Virus record (IMG/VR): IMGVR_UViG_3300022752_000171 | Span: 1-39,112 of that record | Length of the DNA: 39,112 nt | Strand: one strand, 5' to 3' | Source: a virus | Shown: piece after piece, positions 6,964 through 39,112 of the stretch | Layout of the letters: the number at the start of each line of letters is the position of its first letter | Numbering within the stretch: position 1 is the stretch's first letter | Program-made: the position numbers and the translations under genes | Notes under the pieces: model-generated | Told to the model about the DNA's origin: nothing | Seen by the model: the letters and a program-made list of their open reading frames with translations, nothing else | Databases searched by the model: none

Positions 6964-7365
6964 TTAGATTTGTTTTGGAATGGGAGTTGCCCGGCGACCG
7001 CCTTTTGTCCGCATAGCCTCAAGTTCTTCGGCAATTTCAATCTCAGCACGTATCATTTGTTTTAATACACTTTTTTCGTCAATGAGGCTTAGAATATTTC
7101 GATACGTACGATATGGAGTATCATCTCCAGCTGCTGTCTCTGACGATTTCATTAGGGCTTTGAAACGACTAACAATACCAGATCGTAATTGTGATCGTAG
7201 CATTGAACCAAAGCCAACTACTAATACTTCTGGATCGACAGGGTCAAAATTTTTCGGGTCAACGAGCTGTCCGTACTTCCCTGTCGATTCCATGAGTATG
7301 TTTTGCAACTCCTCTTGCACTAGTTGAGTAATTCTACTTTTTAAGTCTTGGTGTTGCATGTTCAA
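6964..7365 (-). CDS. Unknown protein with possible leader peptide, 133 aa
   Basis: The N-terminus (LKSRITQLVQEELQNILMES) resembles the amphipathic leader of the 10-12 kb gene family, ending in ILME followed by S, but it is more divergent. The rest is mostly helical (SMLRSQLRSGIVSRFKALMK; IRAEIEIAEELEAM), with a short Pro/Lys tail. No family recognised. A structural or packaged role is a guess. Confidence 0.7.
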   Translation of the reverse strand: MNMQHQDLKSRITQLVQEELQNILMESTGKYGQLVDPKNFDPVDPEVLVVGFGSMLRSQLRSGIVSRFKALMKSSETAAGDDTPYRTYRNILSLIDEKSVLKQMIRAEIEIAEELEAMRTKGGRRATPIPKQI

Positions 7366-10357: not shown

Positions 10358-10654
10358 TTAATCTGGATATTCAGCTCTTTCCTCTGCCTTTGCAGCATCG
10401 ATGATATCGATGATACAATATGCTAATCTATCCGCATGTTTATAATCTAAGATTGCTCCTGTCGATTGTAGCTCCTTTTCTAAAGCTTGAACCGCAGCTT
10501 TAACTTCTCCTTGCAGGCTAGGCGTAATGGCCTTTAAAATTGCTCCTTCGGAAAGGGGTTTACGAATTTCTTCTTTAACCGTTTTAGGTTTACGGCTACG
10601 TAATACGTTACGTACTTCTTCACGTATCAAATTTCTTAATTCTAATTTGTTCAT
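10358..10654 (-). CDS. Leader-motif protein A, 98 aa
   Basis: Starts MNKLELRNLIREEVRNVL, the amphipathic leader shared by at least seven proteins of the window. A possible maturation site is PLSE followed by G at residue 36-37 (KPLSEGAIL). The remainder is helical (LQGEVKAAVQALEKELQS; ADRLAYCIIDIIDAAKAEERAEY). I infer that the leader targets the protein to the phage head; the function of the body is unknown. Confidence 0.7.
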   Translation of the reverse strand: MNKLELRNLIREEVRNVLRSRKPKTVKEEIRKPLSEGAILKAITPSLQGEVKAAVQALEKELQSTGAILDYKHADRLAYCIIDIIDAAKAEERAEYPD

Positions 10655-10665
10655 TTTTACCTTTA

Positions 10666-11031
10666 TTAATTTCCTACAATATAAACATCGTATCCAGTGA
10701 ATTTGCTAGACAAAGGCTCTAGATCATCTTTAACCCTATATTTAGTGTCTTCTAAAAGATCCTGGCTTAATGGTCCATTTGGGCGAAATTCAAACTCACA
10801 AACACTATCAGTTACTACATAGTTAATTAACTTGCAGTCGTTTTGCTCTATGATTTGTATTACTCTATCCCACAATTGCTGATTGTTTCTTTCAGCTAAA
10901 TTCCAAGAAAAGTATATAGCAACTACTAAGTTGTTGTTTTTGTGCTTAGCTTGAAAAGCAGGAGCTTTTGCTTCTGTTAGCACTTTTCGTACCTCCTCGC
11001 GGATTAGTTGTTTAAGTTCTGATTTGTTCAT
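10666..11031 (-). CDS. Leader-motif protein B, 121 aa
   Basis: Leader MNKSELKQLIREEVRKVLTE followed by AKAPAF: the junction LTE|A fits the LxE|A/G/S type of site used by T4 prohead protease. The body looks like an alpha/beta fold of about 95 residues (NNLVVAIYFSWNLAERN … FTGYDVYIVGN) with no family I recognise. Eleven bases separate its stop from the next start downstream. Confidence 0.7.
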   Translation of the reverse strand: MNKSELKQLIREEVRKVLTEAKAPAFQAKHKNNNLVVAIYFSWNLAERNNQQLWDRVIQIIEQNDCKLINYVVTDSVCEFEFRPNGPLSQDLLEDTKYRVKDDLEPLSSKFTGYDVYIVGN

Positions 11032-11045
11032 ATATTATATATCCT

Positions 11046-11297
11046 TTATAATTCATGATATCCTACACGTGCTTGATTGATAAAATTATAGCTTTGTGTG
11101 ATATGGTCTTGAATCCAACCTGGCAGGTTGATTTCATTGGTACCAATCAGTTGTGATAGTTCTACAGCTGCTTTAGCTATTTCCTGTAGTTGCGCCTGTG
11201 CCATACCTACCTCATGGTCTTGTCCTGGCAATCCAGTTTCAGATAAACGTAATTCTCGAGGTATACGGGCGTTGCGCTGTAAACGTTCTATGTTCAT
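11046..11297 (-). CDS. Unknown helical protein, 83 aa
   Basis: Lacks the leader although it sits among leader genes. The part AQAQLQEIAKAAVELSQLI…LPGWIQDHITQSYNFINQA follows a pattern seen in short C-terminal modules of phage structural proteins (…LPxWVQxKIxxAxDYI). Its start overlaps the upstream stop (ATG at 11297, stop at 11294). Possibly a virion component; unproven. Confidence 0.65.
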   Translation of the reverse strand: MNIERLQRNARIPRELRLSETGLPGQDHEVGMAQAQLQEIAKAAVELSQLIGTNEINLPGWIQDHITQSYNFINQARVGYHEL

Positions 11298-11536
11298 AAT
11301 CTATAATCCTTAAGGCGTGGTACGTTATAACCTAAACGCTTAAGCGTGAATATCAAATGCAGTACGGCATCATCTTCAGTAAAATTATATTTTTTTACTA
11401 TATCTTGTACTATACTCTTAACTTTGGTTTTTGTATAAGAGTCGATATCATGCCCGCCGACGTTAGTTGATTCTAATTCCGTGATAGCCGTTTTAATCTC
11501 TTCACGGATGATTTGTTGTAGTTCTGATTTTTTCAT
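11294..11536 (-). CDS. Leader-motif protein C, 80 aa
   Basis: Leader MKKSELQQIIREEIKTAITE then LESTN (possible site ITE|L, a poorer match). The body SIVQDIVKKYNFTEDDAVLHLIFTLK is helical. Neighbouring genes overlap it by four bases on both sides. The leader is nearly identical to those of the proteins at 36189 and 37491, 25 kb away. Confidence 0.7.
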   Translation of the reverse strand: MKKSELQQIIREEIKTAITELESTNVGGHDIDSYTKTKVKSIVQDIVKKYNFTEDDAVLHLIFTLKRLGYNVPRLKDYRL

Positions 11537-11781
11537 AGGGAAGGTCTTTTAATTAATTTCAAATCTGACTCATGGAAATATCCAGACTGACCATTTGTAA
11601 ATTTAACGAGGAAAAACGCGTCTGAAGGGGATATATCTTTAACTACTCCTTTCTTCTTGTAATTGCTCATAGAAGGAGTGACCACTTGTACAATATCATC
11701 TATTTCAAATTTACGCTCAGCCTCAGCTAACGCTATACGAACCTCTTCACGTATAAGTTGTTTAAGTTCTGTTGCTTTCAT
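11533..11781 (-). CDS. Leader-motif protein D, 82 aa
   Basis: Leader MKATELKQLIREEVRIALAE followed by AERKF (site LAE|A). The body (FEIDDIVQVVTPSMS…KKGVVKDISPSDAFFLVKF) looks like a small SH3-like beta barrel of about 60 residues. Overlaps the next gene by four bases. Confidence 0.7.
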   Translation of the reverse strand: MKATELKQLIREEVRIALAEAERKFEIDDIVQVVTPSMSNYKKKGVVKDISPSDAFFLVKFTNGQSGYFHESDLKLIKRPSL

Positions 11782-11793
11782 TGGTTTATTGGT

Positions 11794-12030
11794 TTATGGA
11801 TGATATTTTTTGATCAATTTAGTCAGTTCAACCATTTTCTTTTTCAAAAGATCAAAGTCAATTTTAGATCCTGCATATTGATTTTTAGGGCCTAAATAAA
11901 AATCTAGATCATCACGAAGTTCTTCCATAGATCTCAATACCCATGGATGGGCATTGCTAGTATTACCTATTTCTTTAAGAGCGTTTTCTACTTCTTCTTT
12001 AATAATTTGTTGTAGTTCTGTTTTTTTCAT
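11794..12030 (-). CDS. Leader-motif protein E, 78 aa
   Basis: Leader MKKTELQQIIKEEVENALKE followed by IGNTS. The body is polar and helical (MEELRDDLDFYLG … FDLLKKKMVELTKLIKKYHP). First gene of the 10-12 kb leader cluster in transcription order; its upstream gap holds a late-type ATATTTATTAATA element (about 12066-12075). Confidence 0.7.
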   Translation of the reverse strand: MKKTELQQIIKEEVENALKEIGNTSNAHPWVLRSMEELRDDLDFYLGPKNQYAGSKIDFDLLKKKMVELTKLIKKYHP

Positions 12031-32719: not shown

Positions 32720-33385
32720 TTAGATCAGAATAGAAGATATAGATTCGCCGTTCTTGATTAGTTTAGCTTTGAAATTATCCGTAAAACACCGGCCGTTGTC
32801 ATCACATGTATCACTAACAAATTCTGCAGGTACATCTGTAAATACCCAATCAAGTACTAAAATGGCTATAAGATTGCCTTTTCCTGTAGGTGTTCCAAAT
32901 TTAGGACTAGTTCTATCATAGATAGGTACTGCAGCAACGGCTTGGGTACCTGCCCTACGTAATAATGCTCTAGTAGCTATATCATCAACTAGACTAACAT
33001 TTGTACAAAACATTTTATTCTCGATAGTGTCTTTAATCATCATTGTATAATGACTAACAAAGAAATTTGTCATTTTCTCGGATAGTTGCCGTAGACCTGT
33101 AGAACAACGCTCATATGTAATAGAAGCTTTCTGCATAGGTGAGTTAGTATAAAATGTACCGCCGTTATGGAATTGTATGACATATACACGATCCGCTCGA
33201 TACTGTTCTTTGAGTTCTTCCATAGTGATATGAATGATCTCGTCTTTTTTGATTTGCGTCATTAATTTTTTTCTAGATATAAGATGATGTCTAGACTCTA
33301 ACCAACGTTTAAAGTAACCTGCTGTAATTAACGTAACTATGATCGATGTTATTGAAGTAATAACGGCTATGACAATATTTTCCAT
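32720..33385 (-). CDS. Membrane-anchored GAF-like sensor protein
   Basis: 221 residues: one N-terminal membrane helix (4-24), a basic linker (RHHLISRKKLMTQIKKDE) and a GAF-like alpha/beta domain from about 50, with RADRVYVIQFHNGGTFYT and a late strand NLIAILVLDWVF. GAF domains bind small ligands or mediate dimerisation. It has no output domain; the neighbour gene downstream is a membrane phosphatase, which suggests the two form one signalling complex. A late-type motif lies 26 bases upstream. Confidence 0.65.
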   Translation of the reverse strand: MENIVIAVITSITSIIVTLITAGYFKRWLESRHHLISRKKLMTQIKKDEIIHITMEELKEQYRADRVYVIQFHNGGTFYTNSPMQKASITYERCSTGLRQLSEKMTNFFVSHYTMMIKDTIENKMFCTNVSLVDDIATRALLRRAGTQAVAAVPIYDRTSPKFGTPTGKGNLIAILVLDWVFTDVPAEFVSDTCDDNGRCFTDNFKAKLIKNGESISSILI

Positions 33386-33430: not shown

Positions 33431-34333
33431 TTAAAACTTAACTCCAATAACTGTGATATCATCGGTCTGTTCGTATCCATATTTCCAATCATCTATAGTT
33501 TTTACTATAAATTTACGTTGATCGTTCATTGTCATGCTTTGCATGATAGTCAACATTTCGTAAAATCTTTTTGTAGAAAACTTTTTATCATCAGGTCCGC
33601 CGAACTGATCGACATAACCATCGGAGAACATATATATAGTATCTTCTTCATCGACAAGATATTTTGTCTCTGTAAAATTTTTATTATGGCTATATCCTCC
33701 GATACTAAATTTATTGCCTCGTAACTCATGACACATATTCTGTTTGAATAGAACAATACGATGCCGGGCTCCAGCAAAATATAATTCTCGAGTACGTTTA
33801 TTTATTTTGATTATTGATATATCCATACCATCTTGTATACACCCGGGCTGTGTTTGTCTTAATGTCATACGTACCTTTTCGTCTAAGGCGTGTAGTATTT
33901 TAGGTAATTCGTATATCTGGTCTTCTAATATAATTTGATTAAGAAAGCTATTGCCTAGCATTGTCATCAATGCTCCGGGTATTCCGTGTCCGGTACAATC
34001 GGCACATATCAATATAAAAGTATCATTATCAACTTTATGGAACCAAAAAAAGTCCCCGCCAACCAATTCCTTAGGGTTGTAATAGATAAATGATAATGGC
34101 AGATGTCGTAGCACATATTCACTGCCAGGCAATAGCGCATCTTGTATTTCTTTAGCATACTGTATACTAGATATCAGTTCGGTCTGATATGACTGTAGTT
34201 CTAACGTTTGTCGTTCGGCATCTTTTTGTAACTGAAGTGATCTTGAAACGATCGTGTAGGTTTGTCGTTTATGAACATAAACTGCAATCACTGTCAGTAA
34301 TACTAAACTAGCCAACCAATACACATACAGCAT
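33431..34333 (-). CDS. Membrane-anchored SpoIIE/RsbU-type PP2C phosphatase
   Basis: 300 residues: membrane helix (4-20), a signalling-helix linker (35-68) ending SSIQYAKEIQDALLP, then the SpoIIE domain. Metal-binding Asp94 (ELVGGDFFW), Asp112 (CADCTGHGIPG), DGMD (168-171), FSDGYVDQFGG (236-246) and DDIT (291-294) are all present, so it should be active. These Ser/Thr phosphatases control anti-sigma-factor antagonists in bacteria. In a phage it may act on host partner-switching or stress signalling; no substrate gene is seen nearby. Confidence 0.9.
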   Translation of the reverse strand: MLYVYWLASLVLLTVIAVYVHKRQTYTIVSRSLQLQKDAERQTLELQSYQTELISSIQYAKEIQDALLPGSEYVLRHLPLSFIYYNPKELVGGDFFWFHKVDNDTFILICADCTGHGIPGALMTMLGNSFLNQIILEDQIYELPKILHALDEKVRMTLRQTQPGCIQDGMDISIIKINKRTRELYFAGARHRIVLFKQNMCHELRGNKFSIGGYSHNKNFTETKYLVDEEDTIYMFSDGYVDQFGGPDDKKFSTKRFYEMLTIMQSMTMNDQRKFIVKTIDDWKYGYEQTDDITVIGVKF

Positions 34334-35455: not shown

Positions 35456-35484
35456 ATAAAAAAAGCTTGAAAATCCAAGCCTTT
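35456..35484 (-). terminator. Intrinsic terminator at the end of the thyA-downstream cargo array
   Basis: Minus strand GCTTG-GATTTT-CAAGC followed by TTTTTTT. It directly follows the sixth thyA-tail copy, marking the end of the array. Confidence 0.85.
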
Positions 35485-35491
35485 TAGTATT

Positions 35492-35529
35492 TAATTTGAT
35501 AAAGGTGCTTTAATTCCTGGAATGGGCAT
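35492..35529 (-). repeat. thyA-tail copy 6 (most diverged)
   Basis: Minus strand encodes PIPGIKAPLSN and TAA in the thyA frame, with an ATG just before it. The second half is identical to the other copies; the first half differs in a way that still reads as a ThyA-like end (PGIKAP). Confidence 0.75.
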
Positions 35530-35536
35530 ATAATGT

Positions 35537-35860
35537 TTAGGAATTAGAAATTTCAATAAACGGCAATTCGCCACTTCTATTACCTAAATTTATTTTATAT
35601 TTAATTCGCGAATATTTAGATTCTAATGTTTCTATATCAGATTTCATATAATCTAAAAGTCTAAAAAAATTATCTTGGAAAATACTATCATATGCAATTA
35701 CAATAATTGATTTCCAATTTTCAAGTTTTCCTTCAAAATCATCTTGTTTTAAACTGTTCCATAATTCTTTATTTGAAGATTTTAATTCTTCATTAATTTT
35801 TTTAGCTTGACTTTCTGTGATAATTCCAGCTAATTGTTTCATTCTAATGATATTTTTCAT
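35537..35860 (-). CDS. Cargo protein with MKQLAGIITES leader, 107 aa
   Basis: Starts MKNIIRMKQLAGIITESQAK; ITE|S is a possible processing site of the same kind as in the leader family. The body is helical then beta (KLENWKSIIVIAYDSIFQDN; KYKINLGNRSGELPFIEI). Family unknown. A late-type motif (35875-35883) and a thyA-tail copy lie upstream. Confidence 0.7.
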   Translation of the reverse strand: MKNIIRMKQLAGIITESQAKKINEELKSSNKELWNSLKQDDFEGKLENWKSIIVIAYDSIFQDNFFRLLDYMKSDIETLESKYSRIKYKINLGNRSGELPFIEISNS

Positions 35861-35874
35861 ATGAGTAATTTTAA

Positions 35875-35883
35875 TATAAATAT
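35875..35883 (-). promoter_or_regulatory. Late-type motif in thyA-tail unit 5
   Basis: ATATTTATATTAAAA on the coding strand, 15 bases before the ATG at 35860, immediately after the tail copy. Confidence 0.45.
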
Positions 35884-35884
35884 G

Positions 35885-35921
35885 ATTAATTTGATAAAGG
35901 TGCTTTAATTGTTGGGTGAGA
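35885..35921 (-). repeat. thyA-tail copy 5
   Basis: Encodes SHPTIKAPLSN and TAA in the thyA frame; the 35905 gene ends inside it (ISPNN, TAA) in another frame. Ser is TCT here and TCA in thyA, a synonymous change. Confidence 0.85.
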
Positions 35922-36138
35922 TTGTTACCTTATACTTCATTGTTCTGTCGGTCATATTCATAACACCAAACACAACTGAACTATCATCAGGGTTAATCAT
36001 AGTTGGTGTTATCATATATCCTTCAATGTTACATAATGTGTCTTTAACTGATGAAACTAAATCTTTAGGTATTTTAGTTTCAATTTCTGATTTTTCAAAT
36101 GTTTTTGGGTTGTAATAATCTGATTTGTAATTTTCCAT
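35905..36138 (-). CDS. Cargo protein, 77 aa, no leader
   Basis: MENYKSDYYNPKTFEKSEIE, then a beta-rich part (SSVVFGVMNMTDRTMKYKVT). No leader motif. The end of the coding frame is supplied by a thyA-tail copy. Family unknown. Confidence 0.65.
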   Translation of the reverse strand: MENYKSDYYNPKTFEKSEIETKIPKDLVSSVKDTLCNIEGYMITPTMINPDDSSVVFGVMNMTDRTMKYKVTISPNN

Positions 36139-36151
36139 AATTTTATATTTT

Positions 36152-36189
36152 TTAATTTGATAAAGGTGCTTTAATTGTTGGGTGTGATT
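36152..36189 (-). repeat. thyA-tail copy 4
   Basis: Encodes SHPTIKAPLSN and TAA in the thyA frame. The 36189 gene stops at its right edge. This unit has no good ATATTTAT motif after it (AATATAAAATT instead). Confidence 0.85.
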
Positions 36190-36437
36190 TATCTTAAATC
36201 TTGAGGATCAATCAAGTGCTTAATTCCTTCCATAGCTTTCATCATGACATCAACACTCTTTCGAACTAGTTGAGAATCTTTACTACTTAAACCTGCTTTA
36301 TTTTGTAATTGCTCATTGTCTAAGCTATCAAGCAGTGTGCTAATCTCAAATAGTATACCTGATAGTTCACTTTTTTCCTCATTTAGAGTTTTAGTAATCT
36401 CTTCTCTAATAATTTGTTGTAATTCTGATTTTTTCAT
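36189..36437 (-). CDS. Leader-motif cargo protein F, 82 aa
   Basis: Leader MKKSELQQIIREEITKTLNE followed by EKSELSG. The body is helical (SGILFEISTLLDSLDNEQLQ; VRKSVDVMMKAMEGIKHLI). Function unknown. Leader identical over 14 residues to proteins C and G. Confidence 0.75.
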   Translation of the reverse strand: MKKSELQQIIREEITKTLNEEKSELSGILFEISTLLDSLDNEQLQNKAGLSSKDSQLVRKSVDVMMKAMEGIKHLIDPQDLR

Positions 36438-36452
36438 AGTTTATGGTTTTAA

Positions 36453-36461
36453 TATAAATAT
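36453..36461 (-). promoter_or_regulatory. Late-type motif in thyA-tail unit 3
   Basis: GATATTTATATTAAAACC on the coding strand, 16 bases from the ATG at 36437. Confidence 0.45.
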
Positions 36462-36464
36462 CGA

Positions 36465-36501
36465 TCAATTCGATAAAGGTGCTTTAATTGTTGGGTGTGA
36501 T
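36465..36501 (-). repeat. thyA-tail copy 3
   Basis: Encodes SHPTIKAPLSN and TGA in the thyA frame. The 36484 gene ends in it as ITPNN, TAA. Confidence 0.85.
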
Positions 36502-37080
36502 TGATTTAAGCAATCGCTGCCAAATAGATTGCTTTTCTTTATATGGAATCGGATTACCGTTTTTATCTACCATATTAATCTCAATATTTTTTTGTTTAAC
36601 AACTTTAAAAAATTCCATATAGTCTTTTCCATAATAATCCCAATCCACGCTATAATCATATTTCTCGGGTTCTTTAAGAGTTATTAAAACATCAACTCTA
36701 ATCAGATAATTTTGAATTGGAACTACTATAGGGTTGTTTGATTGAATAGTCTCTTCTGCTTCAAAATCAGCTGTACCTTTTTTAAAGTCATTAGATTGTG
36801 CATATGGTTGTATTTTAAACTTATCGCTCATTTTATCACCGTCAAACACAAATCTACAATGTAGTGGTTTTTGTAGATATCGATCCGATTTATGAAATAC
36901 TTTATCTCTAGTAAATGATATAGAATGGATTGGGTTAGTTAAAGTACCTCTATTAGCTCCTTCAAGATTACTTTTTAATCTTCCTGATTTTAAAATATTT
37001 ACTGCTGCTGTGAACGTAGTATAGTGGTATAAAATACCTACTTGCTTAGCTTCTCTCAATAAATCAATTAATCGTATCAT
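36484..37080 (-). CDS. ADP-ribosyltransferase-like cargo protein, 198 aa
   Basis: Leader MIRLIDLLREA (LRE|A site), then an ART-like fold: GILYHYTTFTAAVNILKSGR (His19 as NAD-binding His), SISFTRD (53-59), and an acidic FEAEETI (106-112) at the place of the catalytic Glu. T4 packages an ADP-ribosyltransferase (Alt) in its head and injects it to modify host RNA polymerase; by analogy this may be an injected host-modifier. Activity is inference from motifs only. One base separates it from the second ART-like gene. Confidence 0.65.
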   Translation of the reverse strand: MIRLIDLLREAKQVGILYHYTTFTAAVNILKSGRLKSNLEGANRGTLTNPIHSISFTRDKVFHKSDRYLQKPLHCRFVFDGDKMSDKFKIQPYAQSNDFKKGTADFEAEETIQSNNPIVVPIQNYLIRVDVLITLKEPEKYDYSVDWDYYGKDYMEFFKVVKQKNIEINMVDKNGNPIPYKEKQSIWQRLLKSITPNN

Positions 37081-37081
37081 A

Positions 37082-37456
37082 TTAATTATACTTTGTTACC
37101 TTAACTACTGCTGACCATGGAATAACACCTGCATACTCTAAAGTATCTCCTTCATTGTCCTGAACATTTTTATCCATGGAAAGCTTGTTAGGATCCAATT
37201 TTGATACGTCAATATGCAATACAACAATGTTATCTATATAACTATCCGGCACCATTTCAGATGCTTCGGCATACGAACCTGCCACATCAATATCCTTAGC
37301 CAAATAAACTAATCCTGGTTTAGAATCTTCCCAAGCTTTTTTGGATTTAGTTGTGTCTAATCCATCTGTTTGAATTTTTTTAAGCAATGGTTTGTAGGTA
37401 GCATGATACAGAATGTTACCTGATGCTTCTTTGAGTAGATCCTTTAATCGTATCAT
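37082..37456 (-). CDS. ART/KptA-like cargo protein, 124 aa
   Basis: Leader MIRLKDLLKEA (LKE|A), then GNILYHATYKPLLKKIQTDG (His18), GLVYLAKDIDVAGSYAEAS (48-66) and NEGDTLEYAG with Glu107. This H-Y-E order fits small ADP-ribosyltransferases and RNA 2'-phosphotransferase (KptA)-type proteins. The start codon lies only five bases from a late-type motif, so the transcript may be nearly leaderless. Substrate unknown. Confidence 0.65.
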   Translation of the reverse strand: MIRLKDLLKEASGNILYHATYKPLLKKIQTDGLDTTKSKKAWEDSKPGLVYLAKDIDVAGSYAEASEMVPDSYIDNIVVLHIDVSKLDPNKLSMDKNVQDNEGDTLEYAGVIPWSAVVKVTKYN

Positions 37457-37460
37457 ATTA

Positions 37461-37468
37461 ATAAATAT
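37461..37468 (-). promoter_or_regulatory. Late-type motif in thyA-tail unit 2
   Basis: GATATTTATTAATATG on the coding strand; the last ATG is the start codon at 37456. Confidence 0.4.
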
Positions 37469-37471
37469 CGA

Positions 37472-37509
37472 TCAATTTGATAAAGGTGCTTTAATTGCTG
37501 GGTGTAATT
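37472..37509 (-). repeat. thyA-tail copy 2
   Basis: Encodes LHPAIKAPLSN and TGA in the thyA frame; the 37491 gene ends in it as ITPSN, TAA. Confidence 0.85.
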
Positions 37510-37847
37510 ACTTTACCATATAACTTGCATTCAAATCCATGATCTTCTAATAACTTATTAGCTTGTCTAATGTATAAACTTTCATTAGACGTTTTATTAA
37601 GTTGAACTCCAATTGAAAATTTTCCACCTTTTATTGGATGACCATCTTTTTCTAATGGTTTAAGTGTATTTTTTCCAAATGAATGGGGTTGTAAGCCTTT
37701 ACTAGTTTTAACACCAGTATTAATAAAAGTAATAGCATCTAACAATTCATCAATATCGGGTCCTATTAACTCAATGTTTGATTTCTGTTCATTAAGTGCT
37801 TTACGAATCTCTTCTCTAATGATTTGCTGTAATTCTGATTTTTTCAT
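37491..37847 (-). CDS. Leader-motif cargo protein G, 118 aa
   Basis: Leader MKKSELQQIIREEIRKALNE then QKSNIELIG. The body is alpha/beta (DIDELLDAITFINTG; GGKFSIGVQLNKTSNESLYI; ECKLYGKVI). Function unknown. First cargo gene after thyA. Confidence 0.75.
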   Translation of the reverse strand: MKKSELQQIIREEIRKALNEQKSNIELIGPDIDELLDAITFINTGVKTSKGLQPHSFGKNTLKPLEKDGHPIKGGKFSIGVQLNKTSNESLYIRQANKLLEDHGFECKLYGKVITPSN

Positions 37848-37862
37848 AGTTTTACTTTTTAT

Positions 37863-37871
37863 TATAAATAT
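37863..37871 (-). promoter_or_regulatory. Late-type motif after thyA
   Basis: ATATTTATAATAAAAAG on the coding strand, between the thyA stop and the ATG at 37847 (16 bases). Confidence 0.45.
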
Positions 37872-37874
37872 GAA

Positions 37875-37911
37875 TTAATTCGATAAAGGTGCTTTGATTG
37901 TTGGGTGTGAT
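37875..37911 (-). repeat. thyA 3' end: parent copy of the tail repeat
   Basis: Encodes SHPTIKAPLSN and TAA as the true C-terminus of ThyA. The five other copies differ from it mainly at synonymous positions. Confidence 0.85.
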
Positions 37912-39112
37912 TGATAATTGCCTAACTGAATATCCTCTTCCAATAAACACTTACAGAAGTTTGCATCTTTAAATGATTCAAACACTGCCATTGCATCTAA
38001 TGGTCCTTCACCACATGAACCACCTTCATAAGGCCAAAACTCTGTATTGATGTTTAGTTTAGGTAGCTCATAAGGTATTCGGCTGATTTGTTCTTTTGCT
38101 TGTTCAATATGATTAGAATATAAATGCACATCACCCAAATTACCAATCAACTCATCAGGTACCATATTAACTGCTTTGGCAATAAGTTCTAGTAACAATC
38201 CATAACTTGCAATGTTGAATGGTAAACCTAAGAATGTATCTACTGAACGTTGATTCCACATTAATGAGATTGCTCGTGTTGGTATTCCACAATCATTCAT
38301 TATTTTAATGTTCAAATCCTTTATGGATGTATTTGTCTCAGTTCTAAAATTTGGAGTATTGGGTTTGAATATATCACATCTTTCTTCATAACTCAACTCT
38401 CTTGTATAAACTTGAAATCCATAATGACAAGGTGGAAGAACCATTTGGTCTAATTCACCTATATTCCAAGCATTAACCATTAAACGTCTTGAATCTGGGT
38501 TTGTTTTGAGTTCAGAGATTAGGTTTGCGATTTGGTCTATTCCGTACTCAACCCTTCTTACACCTGCCTCTTTACTGTTATCAGTAACTACATCCCAACC
38601 TGTATGCCAATTTCTCCACTGCTTCCCATATACAGGACCTAGTTCACCCCACTTCTTAGCAAACTCATCATCTGTTTTGATTTTGTTGATGAATTCTTCT
38701 TGTGTAAAAGGTCTAGACCTTTCACCTGTCATACCATTTTGTAAAGTAACTGGCTCTCTTACATTATCCTTATTTGCAAATGTTCTTTTCTTTAGGTAAT
38801 TAGCATAACAATCACCATCCCAAATATGACAATTGTTATCAACAAGGTATTTGATATTGGTATCACCTCTTAAAAACCATAGTAATTCAGTTACCATAGT
38901 TTTCCAAGCCATCTTCTTGGTTGTGAGTAATGGAAACCCATCCTTCATGTTATGACGAATAGTATAGCCAAAGATTGATTTAGTACCGGTACCAGTTCTA
39001 TCCTTTTTCTCTACTCCAAAATCTAAAATGGTTTGAAGTAGATCTTGGTATTGTAAATCTAACTCATTGCCTATATGCTCATAAGCACCGTTAGGCCCAA
39101 TTTGGAAATCGT
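37875..39112 (-). CDS. thyA: Thymidylate synthase (N-terminus beyond window)
   Basis: The open frame runs from the right edge (first full codon at 39110) to TAA at 37875, 411 residues. Early part: QIGPNGAYEHIGNELDLQYQ, DRTGTGTKSIFGYTIRH; then FPLLTTKK, ELLWFLRGDTN, catalytic Cys in LPPCHYGFQVY, and end SHPTIKAPLSN. ThyA converts dUMP to dTMP with methylene-tetrahydrofolate and supplies dTTP for phage DNA. The protein is longer than E. coli ThyA (264 aa) because of inserted loops (around FTQEEFINKIKTDDEFAK and NTPNFRTETNTSIK). Its 3' end is repeated downstream. Confidence 0.97.
   Translation of the reverse strand, partial: DFQIGPNGAYEHIGNELDLQYQDLLQTILDFGVEKKDRTGTGTKSIFGYTIRHNMKDGFPLLTTKKMAWKTMVTELLWFLRGDTNIKYLVDNNCHIWDGDCYANYLKKRTFANKDNVREPVTLQNGMTGERSRPFTQEEFINKIKTDDEFAKKWGELGPVYGKQWRNWHTGWDVVTDNSKEAGVRRVEYGIDQIANLISELKTNPDSRRLMVNAWNIGELDQMVLPPCHYGFQVYTRELSYEERCDIFKPNTPNFRTETNTSIKDLNIKIMNDCGIPTRAISLMWNQRSVDTFLGLPFNIASYGLLLELIAKAVNMVPDELIGNLGDVHLYSNHIEQAKEQISRIPYELPKLNINTEFWPYEGGSCGEGPLDAMAVFESFKDANFCKCLLEEDIQLGNYQSHPTIKAPLSN

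Follow-up and report, generated by a model that had tools for sequence, protein, structure and literature searches.

Two adjacent small ADP-ribosyltransferase-like proteins with putative capsid-targeting leaders in a T4-like phage

In this work we have analysed a virus DNA of 39,112 bases, the whole of the fragment record IMGVR_UViG_3300022752_000171 (hereafter the window), and in it two neighbouring genes whose products are predicted to be ADP-ribosyltransferases (ARTs). P0002 (37082..37456, minus strand, ATG start, 124 aa) is a small ART of a family that we call A, with the residues H18, Y51 and E107, and P0001 (36484..37080, minus strand, ATG start, 198 aa) is an ART of a second family, B, with H19, S55, R58, E107 and E109. 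Each begins with a short leader, MIRLKDLLKE↓A in P0002 and MIRLIDLLRE↓A in P0001, the arrow marking the predicted cut. On balance we favour the view that both are single-domain ARTs of a T4-like phage which are packaged in the head, trimmed by a protease, injected, and act early on a host target. The two open reading frames (ORFs) lie 1 nt apart, both are intact, and neither has an internal stop, so that the preliminary description of this region (36484-37456), made from the letters alone, was right about an adjacent pair with leaders.

The family of P0002 was found at 17 and then at 32 loci (overlapping sets) among viral contigs, with weak matches also in Prevotella Lak megaphages. In the alignment of 31 relatives E107 never varies, while H18 and Y51 are kept in at least 90%, an H-Y-E set. 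The AlphaFold2 model built on this 31-row alignment (predicted local distance difference test, pLDDT, 82; predicted template modelling score, pTM, 0.78) matches best the NAD lobe of Tpt1/KptA (Z 12.7, root mean square deviation 2.5, 96 residues aligned; Foldseek E 2.9e-5), of which it covers residues about 84-181 of the Tpt1 chain only; other ARTs follow and the top rows are nearly all ARTs, a list from which the absence of an ART family, Alt included, does not exclude that family. P0002 is thus predicted to have the ART fold, with a beta-core and the ART strand order, and in the model H18, Y51 and E107 are ordered on strands 1, 2 and 5 as in ARTs. The family occurs in two settings, as a small leader protein (L002, L003, L021, L024, L036 and L038) and as a single domain within a large multi-domain protein (L007, L012, L014, L015, L017 and L030). 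In L030 GNAT and PARP-like domains stand beside it, and in L014 NMNAT-like and metallopeptidase motifs were recognised by eye.

The relatives of P0001 were harder to reach. A search with the single sequence gave none in viral contigs or phages (pentatricopeptide-repeat proteins reported by phmmer were dismissed, having no single significant stretch), and the family was reached through a profile combining the first ART domain in L017 with homologous sequences from Dickeya phage JA13, Pseudomonas phage Lu11, Salmonella phage Sen-NF, Alishewanella phage Slickus01 and a 484-kb uncultured phage. This profile recognises P0001 at 48 bits and in a scan gave 31 loci. H19, S55 and R58 do not vary in the 28-row alignment, and E107 and E109 are nearly invariant. 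The AlphaFold2 model from these rows (pLDDT 80, pTM 0.78) is closest to Tpt1 (Z 9.2) and DarT (Z 8.6-9.1), then to other ARTs, which make up most of the top rows, and Foldseek matches it to 17 predicted viral proteins at E <0.001. It is predicted to have the ART fold with the ART strand order, H19, S55/R58 and E107/E109 being ordered on strands 1, 2 and 5 of the model as in ARTs. The ART beta-sandwich, whose absence had been named beforehand as the refuting outcome, is present in both models, and the motifs that the preliminary description had read in ART order are conserved in both alignments. As a separate observation, a cassette protein at L112 884-1315 (MIRLIDLLSESQNIPEVLYHFT...ISFTSD...YEEEY) resembles by eye another ART family; the family-B profile did not report it.

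By sequence the two predicted ARTs belong to separate families, and their leaders are nearly identical. Profile comparison of families A and B (probability 14%) does not support homology between P0001 and P0002 outside the leader and an LYH motif. Pfam assigns neither protein to a family, and across Pfam, PHROGs, NCBIfam and PADLOC P0001 has no family and P0002 no firm one. A pattern search over 84,980 bacterial and archaeal genomes gave, at the sensitivity used, no member of either family; within the searches made, both are confined to phages.

The leaders suggest a link of the pair to the phage head, as in T4. They occupy codons 1-11 of P0002 (37424..37456, minus strand) and of P0001 (37048..37080, minus strand), with a predicted cut after E10 in each, and share 9/11 residues and 26/33 nt; the likeness reaches a few bases upstream (a 38-nt repeat, 84%) and then stops, and the bodies differ, as had been noticed. 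The T4 internal proteins IPII and IPIII start MKTYQEFIAE↓A, and mutants of T4 show residues 4 and 7 to matter for targeting and residues 8 and 10 for processing, the motif of the protease gp21 being L/I-x-E (PMC9026906). The window leaders show the features of T4-type capsid-targeting sequences, namely a length within 10-19 residues, hydrophobic residues at 4 and 7 and an [LI]-x-E site. Among 16 MIRL-type leaders, gathered by eye and serving as a description and not as a test, L stands at position 4 in 16/16 and L or I at position 7, and 15/16 have L at position 8 and E at position 10. As far as residues can tell, the putative leader MIRL(I/K)DLL(R/K)E↓A matches, position for position, the capsid-targeting sequence of IPII/IPIII.

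The putative cleavage site could also be followed across family B, with the motif [LIVMF]xE[AGS] fixed beforehand. It precedes the domain in 11/15 members with a short N-terminal extension (shuffle mean 1.8) and in 11/13 whose domain lies inside a longer frame (shuffle mean 2.3), and in both sets 0/500 shuffles reach these counts, which come from related family members and not from 28 independent events. The homologues in JA13 and Sen-NF begin right at the domain and are leaderless. We also observed that in large proteins of L030, L032, L017, L026 and L028 strings of the QGVAEG, VAED and LNEVGEA type border the ART domain, as if prohead-protease sites were used to part modules.

Evidence from related phages bears on the same point. 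The window comes from a T4-like phage whose closest named relatives infect Flavobacterium: its nearest named DNA match, through thymidylate synthase, is Flavobacterium phage vB_FspM_immuto_2-6A (160 kb) with its sisters. The head operon of immuto_2-6A holds gp20, gp21 and gp23, and between gp20 (portal) and gp21 (prohead protease) lies immuto26A_199 (MW353175 123355-123576), which starts MKKSQIVKAVQEVLEE, the leader type of the cassette genes of the window described below. Other leader genes of this phage are immuto26A_40 (MIKLIDLLTES), immuto26A_189 (MRLLELLREA) and immuto26A_188 (...LAGIITES), so that, with immuto26A_199 included, a T4-type phage has each of the three types of leader seen in the window, MIRL, MKKSEL and LAGIITES. 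Sites of the [LIV]xE type were seen by eye in its gp21 (...KGLLTE↓S), in a scaffold-like gene (...AIAE↓A) and in the major capsid protein (...QIVSE↓A). Matches to Peptidase_S77, the gp21 type of protease, lie above the cut-off in 5/21 family-A records, namely all three of at least 149 kb and two smaller ones, and in 7/18 further related records. The leader reading thus draws support from the length and key positions shared with IPII/IPIII, from the related leader in the immuto head operon and from the gp21-type proteases of relatives. The usual size of gp21 is about 200 aa; in L050, L051 and L223 (records G014, G013 and G026) the frames that contain the Peptidase_S77 match are 502-635 aa long, and the protease may be fused there.

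We propose that P0001 and P0002, by analogy with T4, would be made late, the N-terminal 10-residue capsid-targeting leader drawing each of them into the prohead core. A gp21-type prohead protease would then cut after E10 (LRE↓A, LKE↓A) and the mature ART would stay in the head, from which, again as in T4, it would enter the cell with the phage DNA at infection. Once inside, the ARTs could draw on host NAD+ for an early modification of a host target, a catalysis suggested by fold and residues. P0002, whose model corresponds to the Tpt1 fold in the NAD lobe only, is for this reason most likely an H-Y-E mono-ART acting on a protein; P0001, with its DarT-like predicted fold, may act on protein or nucleic acid.

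The pair stands in an array of short genes at the end of thyA. The thymidylate synthase gene (37875..39110, minus strand, 5' end outside the window) has the 3' end YQSHPTIKAPLSN and stop that is the source of the repeats, its own end counting as copy 1 (37864..37918). Copy 2 (37461..37515) lies directly before P0002, copy 3 (36454..36508) encodes the ITPNN end of P0001, and copies 4 (36141..36195), 5 (35875..35929) and 6 (35482..35520, shorter) follow, all on the minus strand. The repeat, which is the thymidylate synthase 3' end (CAATCACACCCAACAATCAAAGCACCTTTATCGAATTAA; QSHPTIKAPLSN and stop), thus occurs six times in 35.5-37.9 kb, and 0/100 shuffles gave as many. Its copies separate the cassette genes, and at the ends of several of these, P0001 included, the repeat is read out of frame (ITPNN), as a copy of the neighbouring thymidylate synthase gene's end. 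Besides the ARTs, the minus-strand cassette genes code for 118 aa with the leader MKKSELQQIIREEIRKALNE (37491..37847), 82 aa with the leader MKKSELQQIIREEITKTLNE (36189..36437), 77 aa without a leader (35905..36138; by eye, the L192 and L108 arrays have like genes) and 107 aa with the leader MKNIIRMKQLAGIITE↓S (35537..35860), the last resembling immuto26A_188 by eye. In L002, the closest relative, the orthologue of P0002 comes immediately after thyA and the junction is the same; the 118-aa gene is missing at this place, and the window has this cassette at 37491 and one more copy between.

The arrangement is not confined to the window. A scan with an 18-base core gave at least 119 stretches, and of 76 distinct thyA ends among the matches listed, the immuto phages included, 16, that of the window and those of 15 other phage loci, have at least one further copy within 3 kb downstream and 0 upstream. 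Directly after a copy, 23/123 ORFs begin with a leader of one of these three types, against ~1% of other ORFs (among the matches listed; Fisher p ~1e-18, an optimistic value because the three patterns were written after viewing the window). L141 3478-5934 has a window-like order, with a repeat, a MIRLIDLLVEA gene, a family-B ART ending ITPNN, a repeat and four MKKSEL-type genes; compared with the window, the position of the ART is kept and its partner differs. The leader of P0001 is identical at 30/33 nt to those of unrelated cassettes, a comparison for which leader counts alone were used, since AT-rich cassette bodies align by chance and their gapped DNA identity is uninformative. Away from thyA, a second cluster of leaders (MKKSEL..IIREE...L.E) is found in genes at 10358, 10666, 11294, 11533 and 11794 (window 10358-12030), with a similar one at 6964-7365.

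We read the array as one that has gained its cassettes through recombination at the end of thyA. The agent may be an endonuclease, a recombinase or plain repair; in T4, illegitimate repair through microhomology is known (PMC2988022). We suggest, tentatively and with rather less confidence than we have in the packaging of the ARTs, that the thyA end is a recurrent capture site where every gene taken in carries with it, or leaves behind, one copy of the thyA 3' end, and that constant leaders and tails let the middles (injected effectors, ARTs of at least two families) pass from one phage to another. The array would then be an integron-like stock of weapons packaged in the head. In the titles, abstracts and passages of the open-access literature that we consulted, cassette arrays at the thyA end were not described.

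Two pairs of genes elsewhere in the window and its relatives deserve a brief record. A SpoIIE-type phosphatase (PF07228, E 4e-20; window 33431-34333) adjoins a GAF-domain protein (PF01590; window 32720-33385), a possible signalling pair. The proteins at L002 12027-12668 and window 32720-33385 both start with a hydrophobic stretch, share the motif RVWISQFHNGG / RVYVIQFHNGG, and apparently represent a conserved phage family.

Several results weigh against packaged and injected ARTs. No gp21-type (Peptidase_S77) protease lies within the 39-kb window, and no head genes were recognised there, the array being at thyA and outside the head operon. In family A the enrichment of the putative cleavage site is modest in the small members (5/10; 1/500 shuffles reach this) and at embedded domains it is not significant (34/500 shuffles reach it), and L002, close as it is, has LKE↓E where the window has LKE↓A. 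For P0001, Foldseek against the PDB is weak (best E 0.011), and the family-B homologue of L141 keeps H, R and ExE and lacks the serine of S-x-x-R.

A rival reading has the ARTs made and used within the infected cell, for takeover or superinfection exclusion, the leader being a common translation start or a stability tag carried by the cassettes. We hold this to be unlikely. It would suit genes that adjoin thyA, a nucleotide-metabolism gene usually expressed ahead of late genes, in a region that in immuto lies apart from the head operon, and a leader that moves together with its 5' flank as DNA. Against it, the leader matches the T4 capsid-targeting sequence at the very residues tested by mutation, and [LIV]xE↓[AG] is found also at internal domain borders of large proteins, where a translation tag would be senseless. 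Nor do we give much weight to an action of P0001 and P0002 on NAD+ itself or on small molecules, as NADases or as a counter to NAD-based defence. Phage NAD systems against defence have been described, and relatives of P0002 in L007, L012, L014 and L015 are fused, by motif, to an NMNAT-like nucleotidyltransferase domain; P0002 itself, however, is without any extra domain, and the characterised viral H-Y-E ARTs have macromolecules as targets (PMC9503650).

That P0002 is an RNA 2'-phosphotransferase of the KptA/Tpt1 type, working in RNA repair, and P0001 a DarT-like modifier of DNA seems to us improbable. Tpt1/KptA and DarT are the closest folds and there are weak PF01885 matches among the P0002 relatives, but P0002 covers the Tpt1 NAD lobe only, so that the RNA lobe is missing, E107 stands in place of the KptA pattern, and the cut-offs of PF01885 (P0002 relatives score at most 20.1 bits against 26) and PF14487 (DarT, no match within the window) are not reached. 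Least probable of all, and scarcely to be expected, are degenerate folds that serve for structure or binding: ART folds that lack transferase activity do exist and the residue set of the P0001 family is unusual, but in both families the catalytic-type residues are some of the best conserved.

What would packaged ARTs of this kind mean? Joined here are ARTs as first-strike phage enzymes, the head-sorting leader of T4, and a gene array that apparently swaps such cargo at thyA. If this is true, the leader is a handle, readable from sequence alone, for listing the injected effectors of uncultured phages, and the cultured Flavobacterium phage immuto_2-6A makes the packaging reading testable. The array raises a new question, namely why the thyA end is chosen and which enzyme or repair path copies it.

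By the tests run, neither P0001 nor P0002 is Alt, KptA or DarT. The preliminary description had suggested that the pair may be small functional counterparts of the T4 Alt protein. Its ART fold stands in the models, and with it the likeness to a head-packaged ART of the R-S-E clade as a predicted injected enzyme; a kinship with Alt was not found, since hhalign of the P0001 family (the only one so compared) against T4 Alt gave a probability of 0.3 with no relation detected, and of the R-S-E marks of Alt/Mod (Arg on strand 1, STS, ExE) both proteins have His for the Arg and P0001 has ExE alone. The window ARTs are also far smaller. P0002 shares with KptA/Tpt1 the NAD-binding lobe and, unlike it, has no N-terminal RNA-binding lobe; P0001 has DarT, tied with Tpt1, as its closest solved fold, and differs from DarT in having a leader, no Pfam match and no recognised adjacent antitoxin. 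The multi-domain frames with a family-A domain belong to the type that Iyer et al. 2017 described as polyvalent proteins, among whose ARTs the Tox-ART-HYD2 clade has H-Y-D (PMC5512222). As in that clade, the domain of P0002 recurs within large phage proteins that also contain GNAT, PARP-like and other domains, a likeness drawn from motif and domain context; P0002 has E for D and stands alone with a leader. The T4 internal proteins IPI-IPIII differ from the window genes in their cargo, which here is of predicted ART fold, and in the setting of a thyA-linked repeat array. They offer all the same the nearest parallel for the leader, as in both cases unrelated mature parts share one N-terminal leader of 10 residues ending in [LI]xE↓A.
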